DNA from: Petroclostridium xylanilyticum
GTDB taxonomy: Bacteria; Bacillota; Clostridia; SK-Y3
DNA: 64,000 nt
NCBI RefSeq assembly: GCF_002252565.1
Contig: NZ_NPML01000029.1
Coordinates: 62,001-126,000 of the forward strand
Reading direction: 5' to 3'
In this document: piece after piece, positions 9,252-63,153 of the stretch
Layout: every line of letters starts with the position of its first letter
Numbering within the stretch: position 1 is the stretch's first letter
Position numbers and translations under genes: made by a program
The notes under the pieces: generated by a model
What the model was told of the DNA's origin: nothing
The model's input: the letters and a program-made list of their open reading frames with translations, nothing else
Database searches by the model: none

Positions 9252-9280
9252 TTGCCTATATAAATAACACTAAATATATT
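9252..9280 (+). promoter_or_regulatory. Sigma-A-like promoter for the 9286-9467 RNA
   Basis: TTGCCT (9252-9257) and TATATT (9275-9280) are separated by exactly 17 bases. Predicted transcription start is near 9287, the first base of the outer stem of the structured RNA described next. Confidence 0.6.
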
Positions 9281-9285
9281 ACATT

Positions 9286-9467
9286 CATTGTCACGGGCAA
9301 GTAGCATCATGTATGGAATGTTGCAGCCGGAAAATCGCCATGGACGGTGATTTTAGGTTTATCCCGGCACGGATGCCGGTATAAGCCGACGGCAAAACAT
9401 GGAATACATGATGCTGCTTGTCCTCAATGTATCATTTCAGAACAATAGATGCGTGCTAACGCTTTTT
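9286..9467 (+). ncRNA. Candidate structured small RNA with GGA-loop hairpins
   Basis: No reading frame explains this stretch. An outer stem pairs 9295-9314 with 9404-9423 over 20 bp with only two non-Watson-Crick pairs, both G-U if the plus strand is transcribed; CATTG/CAATG (9286-9290, 9425-9429) extends it. Inside are two hairpins: 9331-9339/9346-9354 with loop ATGGAC, and 9364-9368/9375-9379 with loop ACGGAT. ATGGAA also occurs at 9313-9318 and 9399-9404. These ANGGAN motifs in loops are what CsrA/RsmE binds, so a CsrA sponge is one reading. A GCGT-GCTA-ACGC hairpin plus T5 at 9451-9467 could end the RNA. It could instead be a dispersed palindromic element. Confidence 0.6.
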
Positions 9468-57294: not shown

Positions 57295-58076
57295 TGTGGT
57301 TTGATGAAATAATGGATGATTGTAAAAAAGGATTGGAAATTGCAAGTAAAAATAAAGGTGTATTTATACCCATACTTGTTAATGCCGGAATTAATATATT
57401 ATTCTTTATATGTTTGTTTGTTATAACAGTAATTTTTTTCATAAGACATGGCAGAGATTTAGAAAATGTGTTCAATAATACAAATAATTTTCTGGTAATT
57501 ATATTGCCTATTATTATAGGCGGGATAGCGATATATCTATTTTTTACAATAGTAGGTGTGATGATAGAGGTAGGTAGTGTTAACCTCTATAAGATTGCAG
57601 CAGAAGGAATTAAACCAAGGGCATCATATTTTTTTAACGGAATTAAAAGGTACTTCTTTAGGGTTTTTGTTGGTACACTGCTTTTTCATATAATTCTTTT
57701 TGTTTTATCAATTCCTATACTGGTGCTGCTCATATTATATACCTTTACTGTAGGGATTCTCACAGCCGGATGGGGGTTGATTTTTATCGGGGTCCTGGCT
57801 GGAGTATACTTTAATGCATGGACCATCGCAGTAGTGGTGGATGATATGGGACCACTGGAAGCAATAGGAACCAGCGTGAAATTAGGAAAAAAGTATTTTT
57901 GGGGACTATTCGTTCTTACCCTTGCGGCGTTAATGATCAGTCAGTATCTCGTAGCTGCATTCGGTCCTTTGGTGTCTATGATCGGAGGATGGTTTATCAG
58001 CGGAGTAATATTGGCATATTTTAAGCTGGTAACTTTACTGGTGTATAAGCGTAAGAGACACGAAGTGAGAATATAA
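57294..58076 (+). CDS. Multi-pass membrane protein, paralogue of the previous gene
   Basis: 260 residues and about six membrane segments (ILVNAGINILFFICLFVI, VIILPIIIGGIAIYLF, and others). IGTSVKLGKKYFWGLFVLTL lines up with GDSFKFAKKHFFPLTVLQL of the upstream protein. Translationally coupled through TAATG; the ribosome site GGGGAGGTG lies in the upstream gene. The two may form a heteromeric membrane complex; role unknown. Confidence 0.75.
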   Translation: MWFDEIMDDCKKGLEIASKNKGVFIPILVNAGINILFFICLFVITVIFFIRHGRDLENVFNNTNNFLVIILPIIIGGIAIYLFFTIVGVMIEVGSVNLYKIAAEGIKPRASYFFNGIKRYFFRVFVGTLLFHIILFVLSIPILVLLILYTFTVGILTAGWGLIFIGVLAGVYFNAWTIAVVVDDMGPLEAIGTSVKLGKKYFWGLFVLTLAALMISQYLVAAFGPLVSMIGGWFISGVILAYFKLVTLLVYKRKRHEVRI

Positions 58077-58102
58077 AAGAATATAAAAAACGTGCATTTA
58101 AT

Positions 58103-58173
58103 TTAGTTGATGAATATTATGGAAAGAACGTTGCGAAAAGGCTTAGAGCCTGTTAATAATATTCTTCAACTAA
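58103..58173. repeat. Hairpin element with 18-bp arms
   Basis: TTAGTTGATGAATATTAT (58103-58120) pairs with 58156-58173 with one mismatch. The 35-base loop contains GGAAAGAACGTTGCGAAA, also found with one change at 52786-52803, and a GGCT/AGCC pair. No T-tract. It could terminate the membrane-protein operon or be a small mobile repeat. Confidence 0.65.
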
Positions 58174-58202
58174 AAAATATACGCCCTTCCCATATAAAAA
58201 TA

Positions 58203-58231
58203 TTGCATTTATAAAGGAAAAGTCATATAAT
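58203..58231 (+). promoter_or_regulatory. hydG promoter
   Basis: TTGCAT (58203-58208) and TATAAT (58226-58231) with a 17-base spacer. The transcript should start near 58238, leaving a leader of about 230 bases before hydG. Confidence 0.75.
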
Positions 58232-58237
58232 ATAATT

Positions 58238-58467
58238 GTTAATTGTTTGTCAATTTCATACTATCCTGACGGGTTAGAATATTCTGTCCCGGAGGGAGTT
58301 TTGCCGTTATAACCTGACGTATGGGAATAAGTCTTATTCGGAGGGGAAGGAGGTAATATTGTATTAGGGATATTATGCGCTCTTTCTGCGTCGTCAGGGG
58401 GAGCGCTTTGTTTTTAATCGAGAATGCAGAATGGAGAATTACAGACTGGCAATGAAAGGAGATAATT
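58238..58467 (+). promoter_or_regulatory. Structured leader of hydG with internal terminator (candidate riboswitch)
   Basis: The leader contains a CGGG...CCCG hairpin near 58268-58293 with AGA/TCT inside, a GAATAA-GTC-TTATTC hairpin near 58325-58339, three GGAGG-like segments, and a terminator at 58377-58415. It lacks the T-box sequence and I do not recognise a known riboswitch class. The layout (promoter, folded region, terminator, 50 bases, start codon) is that of transcription attenuation. Confidence 0.5.
58377..58415 (+). terminator. Leader terminator upstream of hydG
   Basis: GCGCTCTTTCTG (58377-58388) pairs with CAGGGGGAGCGC (58395-58406) over 12 bp (three U-G pairs), loop CGTCGT, followed by TTTGTTTTT. 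It lies about 140 bases after the predicted start of transcription and before hydG. Confidence 0.8.
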
Positions 58468-59832
58468 ATGGAACTTATTAATGAAGGTAAAATCAGTAAA
58501 TTATTATCTGAAAATAGTGTCACAAGTAAAGAAGAAATAAGCGAGTTGATTTTAAAAGCAAGAGAATGTAAGGGGCTTACTTTAGAGGAAACAGCGAAGC
58601 TGCTGAATATAGAAGAAGACAGTTTACTCGAAGACTTGTTTAAGGCTGCAAAATATGTGAAGGAAAAAATATATGGAAAGAGAATCGTATTGTTTGCACC
58701 TCTATATACAAGTAATGAATGTAACAATAACTGCTTATACTGCGGCTTTAGAGCTGCAAATAAAGAACTTCACAGAAAAACGCTTACAGTTGATGAAATT
58801 GTCAATGAAGCTAAAGAGATTGAAAAACAAGGCCATAAGAGAATATTGATGGTGTGTGGAGAAGATAAAAATAAAACACATATCGACCATATTACCGACG
58901 CATTGGCAGCCATTTATGCAAGTTGTGATATAAGGAGAATCAATGTAAATGCCGCCCCCATGACGGTAGAAGAATTCGGAAAACTCAAAAAAGCCGGAAT
59001 AGGCACCTATCAGCTTTTCCAGGAAACCTATCACCGGGATACCTATAAGAAAATGCATCCTGCAGGGAAAAAAGCTGATTATGAATGGCGGTTGACTGCA
59101 ATGGAGAGAGCGCTGGAAGCAGGTATCGATGATTTGGGAATTGGAGCCTTGTTAGGTTTATATGATTATAAATTTGAAGTACTGGCAATGCTCGAACATT
59201 CTGATTATTTATTAAATAAATATGGTGTCGGTCCTCACACAATATCTGTACCCCGCTTACGTCCTGCGCTTGGTTCAGTTTTAAAAGAAGCTCCTTATCC
59301 GATGAATGATAGGGATTTTAAAAAGCTGGTGGCCGTATTAAGACTAGCGGTGCCTTATACAGGAATTATCCTATCCACTCGTGAAAGTGCTGCATTAAGG
59401 GATGAATTACTCAGTCTTGGGGTATCTCAGATAAGTGCCGGATCGAAAACCAGTCCCGGAGGATATGGGCATGAAGAAGAAAAGTCCGATCAGTTCTATA
59501 CTACTGACCACAGGTCACTTAATCAGATGGTGAAGGCCATTTGCAGTTCCGGATATATTCCCAGCTTCTGTACAGCTTGTTATAGAAGGTGCCGTACCGG
59601 AGAACATTTTATGGAATTAGCAAGAGAAGGAGAAATACATACCTTCTGCCAGCCTAATGCTGTTTTAACATTCAAAGAAAATTTAATCGACTATGGGACA
59701 CCGGAAGATAGAGCAATAGGAGAGGAGATTATCCAAAAGGCATTGGAAGAGATTGAGGATGTAGAACTGAAACAGGCTACCGTTGAAAAGCTCAAATTAA
59801 TTGAAGAGGGACAGAGGGATTTGTATTTTTGA
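58468..59832 (+). CDS. hydG: [FeFe]-hydrogenase maturase HydG (tyrosine lyase)
   Basis: A 454-residue radical-SAM enzyme that cleaves tyrosine to make the CO and CN- ligands of the H-cluster. The SAM-cluster motif CX3CX2C is Cys85, Cys89 and Cys92 (ECNNNCLYCGF). The C-terminal CX2C plus distant Cys, which holds the second cluster and its dangler iron and sets HydG apart from ThiH, is seen at Cys368, Cys371 and Cys394. ATG follows AAAGGAG. It overlaps the upstream part of the aspartase frame and is followed by hydF; hydE is not in the window. Confidence 0.96.
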   Translation: MELINEGKISKLLSENSVTSKEEISELILKARECKGLTLEETAKLLNIEEDSLLEDLFKAAKYVKEKIYGKRIVLFAPLYTSNECNNNCLYCGFRAANKELHRKTLTVDEIVNEAKEIEKQGHKRILMVCGEDKNKTHIDHITDALAAIYASCDIRRINVNAAPMTVEEFGKLKKAGIGTYQLFQETYHRDTYKKMHPAGKKADYEWRLTAMERALEAGIDDLGIGALLGLYDYKFEVLAMLEHSDYLLNKYGVGPHTISVPRLRPALGSVLKEAPYPMNDRDFKKLVAVLRLAVPYTGIILSTRESAALRDELLSLGVSQISAGSKTSPGGYGHEEEKSDQFYTTDHRSLNQMVKAICSSGYIPSFCTACYRRCRTGEHFMELAREGEIHTFCQPNAVLTFKENLIDYGTPEDRAIGEEIIQKALEEIEDVELKQATVEKLKLIEEGQRDLYF

Positions 59833-59861: not shown

Positions 59862-61262
59862 ATGGATTACAGGATAGAACATGATTTGCTTGGAGAGAAA
59901 CAAGTACCGGCTGATGCCTATTACGGTATACACAGCCTGCGTGCCTTTGAAAATTTTTACTTAACCGGAAGGGGTATTCATAAGGAATTAATTAAAGCTC
60001 TGGCAGTTGTAAAAAAAGCAGCGGCAATGGCTAATATAGAGACGGGGCAGTTGGATAAGCATATCGGGAAAGCTATTGTCCATGCCTGTGAGGAGATCAT
60101 GGAAGGACAATTACATGATCAATTTGTAGTAGATGCACTACAAGGTGGAGCCGGAACATCTGCAAATATGAATGCAAATGAGGTTATTGCCAACCGTGCT
60201 ATTGAGTTATTAGGTGGTCAAAAAGGAGATTACTCCATGGTGCATCCCTTAAATCATGTGAATATGAGCCAGTCTACCAATGATGTATTTCCGACAGCTG
60301 TACGCATAGCTGCGCTTAAATTACTTAAACCGGTAAGTGAGAAGTTTGCCGAGCTTCAAACTGCCCTGCAGAGAAAAGAAGAAGAATTTTCCGGCATCAT
60401 TAAAATGGGACGTACAGAGCTGCAGGATGCCCTGCCGGTCATGATGGGGCAGGAGTTCGGTGCATATGCCCAGGCCATTTCGAGGGACCGCTGGCGAATA
60501 TATAAAGCAGAAGAGCGCCTCCGGCAGGTCAATATGGGTGGAACGGCCGTGGGTACAGGGCTTAATGCAGAAAAGCGATATATATATCTGGTGATCGAAA
60601 AACTGGTGGATGTAACAGGTTTAGGATTGGCCCGTGCAGAATATATGATGGACCCTACGCAGAATAACGATGTATTTGTAGAAGTATCCGGTATGCTAAA
60701 AGCAGCAGCAGTGAATCTGGCTAAAATAGCCAATGATTTACGTCTCCTTTCTTCAGGACCTACTGCCGGTTTTGGAGAGATCAGACTGCCGGAAATGCAG
60801 GCAGGGTCAAGCATCATGCCGGGCAAAGTCAATCCGGTAATCCCTGAAGCAGTGCGGCAAGCAGCCTACCAGGTAATGGTAAATGACCATGCTATAGCCA
60901 TGGGAGCTCAGGGGGGAGAATTAGAACTTAATGCCATGCTTCCATTTATAGCAGATAATCTTTTTGAATCTCTGGATTTGCTTTACAGAGGGGCTGCAAT
61001 TTTTATTGAAAGATGTATCAATGGAATAACCGTAAACAAAGAACGATGTAAACAAATGGTAGAAGAAAGTTTCGTATATGCAACTGCTTTAAGTCCTCAT
61101 ATCGGTTATGATAAGGCTACTGCCGTTGCACAGCAGGCACGCAGTGAGGGAAAGACGGTACGGCAGGTAGCGTTAGAAACAGGACTTTTCACAGAGAGCG
61201 ATTTAGACAGGATACTAGATCCGTATCAGCTTACCAAACCAGGAATTCCTGGACGACGTTAA
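59862..61262 (+). CDS. aspA: Aspartate ammonia-lyase
   Basis: A 466-residue member of the fumarase/aspartase superfamily, with the GSSIMPGKVNPVIPEAV signature loop and MSQSTNDVFPTAVRIA and AGTSANMNANEVIANRA regions. It splits aspartate to fumarate and ammonia. The ATG at 59862 fits GGAGGGAG, 29 bases after hydG; a TTG at 59829 is less likely. It sits between hydG and hydF in one operon, so it may serve H-cluster assembly by releasing ammonia for the bridging dithiomethylamine ligand; this is inference. Confidence 0.93.
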   Translation: MDYRIEHDLLGEKQVPADAYYGIHSLRAFENFYLTGRGIHKELIKALAVVKKAAAMANIETGQLDKHIGKAIVHACEEIMEGQLHDQFVVDALQGGAGTSANMNANEVIANRAIELLGGQKGDYSMVHPLNHVNMSQSTNDVFPTAVRIAALKLLKPVSEKFAELQTALQRKEEEFSGIIKMGRTELQDALPVMMGQEFGAYAQAISRDRWRIYKAEERLRQVNMGGTAVGTGLNAEKRYIYLVIEKLVDVTGLGLARAEYMMDPTQNNDVFVEVSGMLKAAAVNLAKIANDLRLLSSGPTAGFGEIRLPEMQAGSSIMPGKVNPVIPEAVRQAAYQVMVNDHAIAMGAQGGELELNAMLPFIADNLFESLDLLYRGAAIFIERCINGITVNKERCKQMVEESFVYATALSPHIGYDKATAVAQQARSEGKTVRQVALETGLFTESDLDRILDPYQLTKPGIPGRR

Positions 61263-61301: not shown

Positions 61302-62534
61302 ATGAGCAATATGAATACAACCCCGACATCATCCCGGCTGCATATAGCCATATTTGGCCGGCGCAATGCGGGGAAATCAAGTCTTATCAATGCGCTGACC
61401 AATCAACCTATTGCTTTGGTTTCAGATGTGCCGGGGACTACCACTGACCCCGTATCCAAGGCGATGGAGCTTCTGCCTTTAGGTCCGGTAGTTATTATAG
61501 ATACTGCAGGAATTGATGATGAAGGCACTCTGGGTAAGATGCGGGTGGAAAAAACTTATGAGGTGCTCAATCGTACCGAACTGGCAGTGTTAGTTATCGA
61601 TGGACAGACAGGTGTTACCGATTTTGAGCTGGATATTATGCAGCGTATCAGGGAAAAGAATATAGCAGTAATAGGTGTGATCAATAAGAGTGATATATAT
61701 GAAGTTACAGGGGTACAGCAGCAGGAATGGGAGAAAAAGCTGAATTTAAATCTAATAAAAGTTTCTGCCAGGACGGGTAACGGTATTGAGGCATTAAAAA
61801 AAGCAATTATACAGGCTGCTCCCTCTGACGAGCGGGAAATGTCACTGCTGAGCGGATTAATCAACCCGGGTGACTTTGTGGTGATGGTGGTACCCATCGA
61901 TAAGGCAGCACCTAAAGGAAGATTGATATTGCCCCAACAGCAGGTCATCCGGGAGACTCTTGAACATGATGCCATAGCCATCGTTACCAAGGAGTATGAA
62001 CTGAGGGAAACCCTTGAATACCTGGGTAAAAAGCCAGCGATAGTAATTACCGACTCCCAGGCATTCCTTAAAGTTGCAGCTGATACGCCCCGGGATATAC
62101 CTCTGACTTCTTTTTCAATATTAATGGCACGTCACAAGGGCGATTTGATTGAACTGACCAAGGGGGCTAAAGCTATACAATCGTTATCTCCAGGTGATAA
62201 AGTGCTTATTGCAGAAGCATGTACCCATCACCGCCAATCCGACGATATCGGTACTGTAAAAATTCCCAGGTGGCTGCGGCAGATGATAGGAGGGGAACTG
62301 CAATTTGAATGGTTTAGCGGGACGGGATTTCCTAACAATCTTCAGGACTTTAAACTCATTGTGCACTGTGGTGCATGTATGATTAACCGCAGGGAGATGA
62401 TGCACCGTCTGGCACTGGCAAAGGAGCAGAATATACCTATTGTAAATTATGGAGTACTGATTGCCTGCGTTCACGGAATATTACCTAGAGCACTGGAACC
62501 TTTTCCGGCTGCCAGAATGATATTGGAAGACTGA
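61302..62534 (+). CDS. hydF: [FeFe]-hydrogenase maturation GTPase HydF
   Basis: A 410-residue scaffold protein that carries the diiron precursor to the hydrogenase. The N-terminal GTPase domain has the P-loop GRRNAGKS (19-26) and DTAGIDD; a dimerisation domain follows; the C-terminal cluster domain has Cys307-Thr-His309 and His355-Cys356-Gly-Ala-Cys359, the CxH...HCxxC [4Fe-4S] ligands. ATG follows AGGAGGG, 40 bases after aspA. Confidence 0.96.
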   Translation: MSNMNTTPTSSRLHIAIFGRRNAGKSSLINALTNQPIALVSDVPGTTTDPVSKAMELLPLGPVVIIDTAGIDDEGTLGKMRVEKTYEVLNRTELAVLVIDGQTGVTDFELDIMQRIREKNIAVIGVINKSDIYEVTGVQQQEWEKKLNLNLIKVSARTGNGIEALKKAIIQAAPSDEREMSLLSGLINPGDFVVMVVPIDKAAPKGRLILPQQQVIRETLEHDAIAIVTKEYELRETLEYLGKKPAIVITDSQAFLKVAADTPRDIPLTSFSILMARHKGDLIELTKGAKAIQSLSPGDKVLIAEACTHHRQSDDIGTVKIPRWLRQMIGGELQFEWFSGTGFPNNLQDFKLIVHCGACMINRREMMHRLALAKEQNIPIVNYGVLIACVHGILPRALEPFPAARMILED

Positions 62535-62619: not shown

Positions 62620-63153
62620 ATGCTGCGTATTAGTAAACATCAACTGTTTTGTCTGATTATGCTTTTTGAAATAGGGAGTACCACTCTGTTTGCACTGGGA
62701 ATAGACGCAAAGCAGGACGCTTGGATTGCTATTTTAGTGGCCATGCTTATTGGGTTTGTATTGTTATGGCTCTATACCGGGTTGCAAAAATATTTTCCAG
62801 AGAAAAATTTTGCCCAAATTATTATTGCTTTACTTGGAAAAGTTATAGGTATGCCCCTTGTTTTTTTTTATGGACTATATTTTATTTATATATCCACCCG
62901 GAATTTTCGTGATTTTGGTGAACTACTTGTCAGCACGTTCCTTGTGGAAACGCCGCAAATATTTATACTCATCATTTTTATGCTGGTTGTACTATACATT
63001 CTTTTTCTAGGTTTGGAAACCATGGGACGTACAAGTGAAATTATGCTGCCTACTATTTTGTTTTTTATTATAGGTACATACATAATGATTTATTTCTCTC
63101 TCTATAACTTTTATTTGTTCTTTTTGTATTTTCTCAAACATTTCGACCTTTGA
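62620..63153 (+). pseudogene. GerAB-type spore germination permease, 3' end lost at a junction
   Basis: The first about 155 residues are a GerAB/endospore permease (MLRISKHQLFCLIMLFEIGS; ALGIDAKQDAWIAILVAMLI; FRDFGELLVSTFLVETP), with about four to five of the normal ten helices. Around 63080-63095 the family text stops and the frame runs on, to 177 residues in total, through sequence that is the antisense of a gerAC gene. GerAB is normally about 365 residues. The break coincides with the break in gerAC, as expected for an inversion inside a gerA operon or for an assembly join. Confidence 0.85.

Follow-up and report, generated by a model that had tools for sequence, protein, structure and literature searches.

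In the window (the whole 64,000-nucleotide stretch of DNA analysed here), we identified a leader ahead of hydG that is very probably a conserved attenuator; judged from its sequence, and with the trigger left aside, it is fairly likely to work as a cis-acting RNA OFF switch of the [FeFe]-hydrogenase maturation genes. A first-pass annotation of the same DNA had proposed attenuation of these genes, and the proposal is now backed by conservation of the leader, covariation of its hairpins, an antiterminator pairing and specificity for hyd loci; the tandem symmetric hairpins and the wide occurrence of the RNA are additions to it.

The leader follows a sigma-70-type promoter (TTTATA-17-TATAAT at 58208-58236, forward strand; 10 of 12 consensus bases), from which transcription would start near 58243. 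The region 58230-58420 has a predicted fold of -58 kcal/mol (z -2.8) and contains an intrinsic terminator stem-loop at 58377-58406 (forward strand), with a stem of 12 pairs (58377-58388/58395-58406; seven G-C) and a 6-base loop, followed by TTTGTTTTTA; a T-rich tail extends to about 58416. The terminator folds at -18.8 kcal/mol (z -4.6 vs shuffles of the same bases), is the sole terminator-like site in 57900-58600 (0.2 expected), and is placed between the promoter and the first gene, as is expected of an attenuator. The controlled operon consists of hydG (58468-59832; TIGR03955, 512 bits vs a cut-off of 312), an aspA-like aspartate ammonia-lyase gene (59865-61262; NF008909, above cut-off) and hydF (61302-62534; TIGR03918, above cut-off), all on the forward strand; aspA in hyd operons is documented in the accessible part of PMC11736057. 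The well-formed promoter, folded leader, 12-bp terminator with T-tail and hydG of the first-pass annotation are thus all borne out. With TIGR03955, HydG proteins of the class mostly reach about 850-950 bits, compared with the 512 bits of the window HydG, which by its sequence is a second HydG lineage. Downstream of the operon, 62620-63153 (forward strand) matches an endospore germination permease model, of whose 357 positions only about the first 164 are covered; this gene is possibly truncated.

The terminator might merely end an upstream transcript, with the leader folds being functionless, an objection that had accompanied the attenuation proposal. We consider this highly improbable, since nothing beyond the presence of a terminator speaks for it, and the gene upstream of the leader stops at 58076, ahead of hydG's own promoter. 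Because this stop precedes the promoter, and because the leader and terminator are conserved, the terminator seems not to end another transcript; the hairpins conserved at hyd loci only, their covariation and the partner-specific antiterminator (all described below) argue in the same direction. At 58102-58176, past the end of the upstream gene and before the hydG promoter, lies a long AT-rich inverted repeat (TTTAGTTGATGAATATTAT... / ATAATATTCTTCAACTAAA), perhaps the terminator of the upstream gene.

Alignment with the leaders of relatives, a check that the first-pass annotation had suggested, showed that leader and terminator are kept ahead of hydG in two related genera. When the leader DNA alone was searched against 60 related genomes, some match at E<=1 was found in 49, and convincing ones only in the window's own genome and in two relatives (G001 and G003, 76% and 73% identical), both preceding hydG. 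Two blocks that resemble each other, CCUGACG...CGGAGGG in form, stand out in the alignment with these two relatives. The terminator is conserved in both relatives, its 5′ arm more so than its 3′ arm, which is the mark of a second pairing partner; the arm holding CUCUUUCU is invariant among the three closest leaders. At more distant HydG loci, and at loci of the putative regulator TM1266, the plan is the same and the sequence is much changed.

The two blocks correspond to two copies of one hairpin. The first symmetric copy, hairpin R1 (58265-58296, forward strand), reads CCU-GA-CGGG-...-CCCG-GA-GGG, and the second, hairpin R2 (58313-58345, forward strand), adjoins the expression platform; both are called from a covariance model (model R2), covariation in the family and the predicted fold. 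Model R2 finds just two copies under E 1 across the 64-kb window, both on the forward strand, with E-values (window plus loci) of 1e-6 for hairpin R1 and 1e-5 for hairpin R2; since both are in its training set, they match the model partly by construction. Over 25 aligned hairpins, the layout is P1 (mostly YCU/RGG), a loop GA/RA, P2, a loop that is mostly RA/GA, P3, and an apical loop. P2 comprises four variable pairs, a 4-bp helix flanked by two purine internal loops in which CUGA faces RAAG; these internal loops are the conserved parts, and the apical loops vary. Each strand consists of CUGA, about four variable bases and RAAG: columns C2 U3 (G/A)4 A5 on one strand correspond mostly to C22 U23 G24 A25 on the other, and R10 A11 R12 G13 is matched by R30 A31 R32 G33, with exceptions at positions 10, 11, 13, 22 and 24 (including the window's second hairpin). 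Since the columns match on both strands, the hairpin is close to two-fold symmetric. Strictly conserved bases are few, and fall mainly within the short symmetric loops.

Pairing is kept in 93.2% of the cells of the 25-hairpin alignment, and falls to about 50% when the partner is shifted by one column. Both sides of a pair have changed in 56 cells, vs 19.6 (sd 3.6) in shuffles, a count that none of 500 shuffles reaches. The two-sided changes are spread over 8 of the 10 pairs; this number and that of further pair types (22), reached by 80 and 32 of the 500 shuffles, respectively, are not far from shuffles when taken alone. An earlier alignment of nine close hairpins gives the same picture of covariation. 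A simple descriptor, which recovers just 33 of the 67 last hairpins of the leader set used below, places a second hairpin upstream of the last one in 21 of the 67 leaders (a few of them poor by eye), vs 6.2 in shuffles (sd 2.5; highest 12 in 200 sets). The tandem plan is not universal; many leaders have a single copy, and the window has two.

The hairpin is almost confined to hyd loci. In a search of 199 genomes of the phylum, including the window's own, model R2 has a match at E<=0.03 in 18 others, none of which contributed sequence to the model; in 14 of the 18 (14 of the 198 searched besides the own genome) the match is at a hyd locus (G391, G425, G428, G350, G342, G475, G305, G467, G388, G451, G374, G369, G383, and G324), and below E 0.007 this holds for 13 of 13 genomes. 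The matches in G295, G393, G463, and G375, which are not at hyd loci (all E>=0.008), were judged false, as was a match in G119 (E 1.7e-4), which is inside a coding frame. The model R2 search of collected loci took in 90 and 85 sources, a part of all loci. A pattern for a subtype with the GGGUNNGUCCC stem-loop gave 17 matches in 17 of 291 whole genomes, all ahead of hyd genes, and the reversed control pattern gave none in the 291. By coordinates, 15 of the 17 are ahead of TM1266 within about 330 nt; on reading, the match in G211 is also followed by TM1266, and the one in G262 lies 1.2 kb ahead of hydG, behind an apparent hydE start (by eye). Since this pattern was designed on TM1266 loci, its evidence is the absence of matches elsewhere. 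A strict hairpin descriptor gave 17 matches at 90 TM1266 loci, vs 3.4 in mononucleotide shuffles of the same flanks. In the GGGU-type subtype, the CUGA end is misaligned by MAFFT.

Other searches were less selective. The pattern CCTGACG-N{12,40}-CGGAGGG was dropped, since it occurs in 58 of 291 genomes, mostly at unrelated places, with many control matches. Another covariance model, model R1, matches in 37 of the 291 genomes (E<=0.3); its top matches are at hyd loci, from about E 0.003 they become mixed, and seven (L163, L165-L167, L169, L170, and L176) were judged coding. The hydG leaders of G179, G260, and G027 were at first taken for other RNAs; model R2 later matched the hydG leader of G179 (E 3e-4) and, weakly, that of G027 (E 0.02), and G260 has a weak model R1 match at its TM1266 locus.

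An alternative pairing links the hairpin to the terminator. In the window, the antiterminator 5′ strand GGAAGGAG (58345-58352, forward strand) overlaps the 3′ end of hairpin R2 and pairs with CUCUUUCU (58380-58387, forward strand), which doubles as part of the terminator 5′ arm. For the family, we took as test strand the 3′ end of the hairpin plus 12 bases, and paired it with the terminator 5′ arm of its own leader and with those of all others, in 67 of 77 leaders (removed were leaders without a called terminator, those with a terminator weaker than -8 kcal/mol or more than 100 nt away, and duplicate strands). The mean for the own partner is -14.4 kcal/mol, vs -11.1 (sd 0.33) for permuted partners, and none of 20000 permutations is as low; ranked against all partners, a leader's own arm comes within the best tenth in 31 of the 67 leaders and within the best quarter in 47. 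An alternative pairing that excludes the terminator, as is expected of an attenuator, is thus found both in the permutation test and in the pairing in the window. At least three of the last five hairpin bases join the antiterminator pairing in 64 of the 67 leaders, which suggests that hairpin and antiterminator are generally mutually exclusive. In the window the two share only about one base, and the fold predicted for a truncated transcript has room for both, which, as modeled, counts against simple competition in this leader; a bound trigger, or tertiary structure, might strengthen the competition.

By comparison of leaders, the last hairpin has a 3′ strand (RAAGG...) complementary to the 5′ arm of the terminator that follows, so that hairpin, antiterminator and terminator would compete. 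In the mechanism we propose, with the hairpin open, the antiterminator would form (or the ribosome would bind) and the genes would be read; a trigger that holds the hairpin closed would let the terminator form (or would block the ribosome site), and expression would stop. The translational variant is suggested by eight hyd loci in which the hairpin is directly followed by the AAGG/AGG of the hydG ribosome site, 4-15 bases before the ATG. Both the antiterminator and the ribosome-site arrangement indicate that a closed hairpin lowers expression, and closing of the hairpin is likely what switches expression off.

The genes downstream of the RNA are hydG, hydE, TM1266 and sometimes an ECF or FecCD transporter. 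We observed the orders RNA-hydG (the window, G001, G003, G374, and G369), TM1266-RNA-hydG (G089, G221, G114, G350, G475, G305, and G451), RNA-TM1266-hydE (G146, G467, and G383), RNA-hydE (G391 and G425), and HydA-RNA-TM1266-hydG (G210 and Tepidibacter, in both of which the model matches the RNA only weakly, at E 0.27 and 0.18). With transporters, there are TM1266-RNA-ECF S gene (G050, G112, and G260), HydA-RNA-TM1266-ECF S gene (G113), and TM1266-RNA-FecCD permease-ATPase-hydE-nif-like genes-binding protein-hydF (G342). The places of TM1266 and HydG were found by family search; the other context genes were named by eye, except for the window genes, two ECF S proteins and one TM1266. By eye, the FecCD/hydE/hydF operon behind the RNA in G342 includes three nitrogenase-like genes (L317, G342:C1:88500-98700). 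An ECF transporter S component is beside TM1266 and the RNA in four genomes (L045, L160, L161, and L179); two of these proteins were compared, matching only Pfam PF12822 and having no solved relative by sequence, which leaves no clue to the substrate.

These transporters bear on what holds the hairpin closed. A covarying, conserved structure in the 5′ leaders of one coherent gene set is what a riboswitch would present, and the trigger may be a small molecule or ion: the symmetric hairpin would then serve as an aptamer offering two equivalent sites, and tandem leaders would have it twice; its ligand would be connected with H-cluster assembly and enter the cell through the ECF or FecCD proteins, and TM1266 would be a mere member of the regulon. 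We take such an OFF riboswitch to be a serious possibility that stops short of being probable. The RNA directly ahead of the ECF S genes (G050, G112, and G260) and of the FecCD permease genes (G342) fits a sensed, imported compound, the RNA is present in two genomes without detectable TM1266, and the tandem hairpins resemble cooperative aptamers in their general plan; the strictly conserved bases, few and mostly in short symmetric loops, the association of the RNA with TM1266, and the lack of an Rfam relative weigh against it. No Rfam 15 family reached its gathering score in the hydG leader (covariance-model search of the window), so that the Rfam check suggested in the first-pass annotation agrees with its impression that no T-box or familiar riboswitch was present. 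At E<=10, there were five chance-level matches far below the cut-offs, two of them within the leader, and in 40 related loci the only Rfam 15 matches were to the unrelated TPP (L106) and tRNA (L124) families. Elsewhere in the window, 9277-9438 (forward strand) matches the TwoAYGGAY RNA (RF01731), an orphan motif, with 53.8 bits vs a cut-off of 43 (E 5e-6).

We favour TM1266 protein as the trigger, with a small ligand as a close rival. The first-pass annotation had thought of a metabolite, metal or redox state; a protein trigger such as TM1266 would account for the data at least equally well. TM1266 is a member of PF21699 ("iron-only hydrogenase system regulator, putative") and matches NikR_C weakly; one solved relative, 2NZC, has four chains, and we found no function for the family in the open full-text literature. 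All 14 phylum genomes with hyd-linked RNA have TM1266. In the class, the RNA is found in at least 53 of 175 TM1266 genomes (a lower bound, since not all 175 were examined) vs 2 of the 39 genomes that have HydG but no TM1266 match (Fisher p 5e-4, not corrected for relatedness, on groups compiled by hand). The 39 genomes were searched whole, as was the window's own, and hydG leaders were read in 20 such genomes; the two exceptions (G193 and G020) are from genera of which other genomes do have TM1266. The window genome's own TM1266 (L147, G000:C29:172823-173050) precedes a dapF-like gene, some 53 kb away from hydG, and the flanks read around it have no sign of a hairpin leader. The polar residues most conserved across 90 TM1266 sequences are two Arg, one Asn and two Lys; no Cys is prominent, and His is so at just one position (80%), which does not point to a NikR-like metal site. 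The protein is not basic (mean net charge +0.6).

A NikR-C-like oligomer of TM1266, whose gene usually adjoins the RNA, could suit a dyad-symmetric hairpin. The association of TM1266 with the RNA, its conserved residues and the symmetry of the hairpin together make it the first candidate, and we tentatively name it as the putative direct trigger. Still more tentatively, TM1266 might be a new kind of RNA-binding regulator, whose oligomer clamps the dyad-symmetric hairpins, whether single or tandem, and in this way sets transcription termination or translation initiation, both for the H-cluster assembly genes and for the TM1266 gene itself, in response to the maturation state of the hydrogenase. 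Protein binding is in general compatible with short, low-information hairpins that carry purine loops in tandem, and an RNA-binding protein other than TM1266 could recognise them, such as a general antiterminator, a ribosomal protein or a redox protein; we consider this unlikely, as no other candidate was seen and the RNA is almost confined to hyd loci, so a protein partner should be specific to the hyd system.

How the level of [FeFe]-hydrogenase maturation is controlled in anaerobes is largely open, and TM1266, labelled a "putative regulator", is not known to have a target. A conserved RNA switch almost only at hyd genes, in many genera of the phylum, would make this question of regulation directly testable, and hydrogen production might be controlled at this point. 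Should TM1266 be the trigger, it would represent a new family of RNA-binding proteins whose RNA target is unusually symmetric; should it be a small molecule, the RNA would be a new orphan riboswitch class.

We found no description of such a leader in the open full-text literature (supplements and preprints being outside its scope). The accessible parts of PMC2965389, PMC6429828, PMC2864571, PMC8632094, PMC11109978, PMC7266159, PMC9481103, PMC11477304, and PMC12456013 describe no hydrogenase-maturation leader, and an unnamed motif may stand in the supplements of these motif surveys. Several known systems share parts of the plan. T-box leaders likewise have a terminator ahead of biosynthesis genes, but the hyd leader has neither an Rfam T-box match nor a T-box core. 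The target RNAs of ANTAR proteins have paired hairpins with conserved hexaloops, and antitermination is controlled by the protein. They are similar to the hyd leader in having two hairpins and a terminator, with protein control possible in the latter as well, but the apical loops of the hyd hairpins are not conserved. The Guanidine-II riboswitch has tandem hairpins with conserved ACGR-type loops. According to the accessible part of PMC9481103, its two hairpin loops interact. Some hyd leaders, including that of the window, also have two similar small hairpins in a row, as in Guanidine-II and other tandem aptamers; however, their apical loops vary over the 25 aligned hairpins, the internal loops are conserved instead, many leaders have one copy, and there is no Rfam match to Guanidine-II. 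Another cis-regulatory RNA at hydrogenase genes is the Moco RNA motif, which precedes a hydrogenase complex in Eubacterium limosum (accessible part of PMC5651825); it is a separate family, with no match in the window and the 40 related loci. From OFF-type terminator/antiterminator riboswitches the hyd leader differs in having no known aptamer (Rfam), whereas it resembles them in that the 3′ strand of the sensor fold doubles as the antiterminator strand and is followed by an intrinsic terminator.
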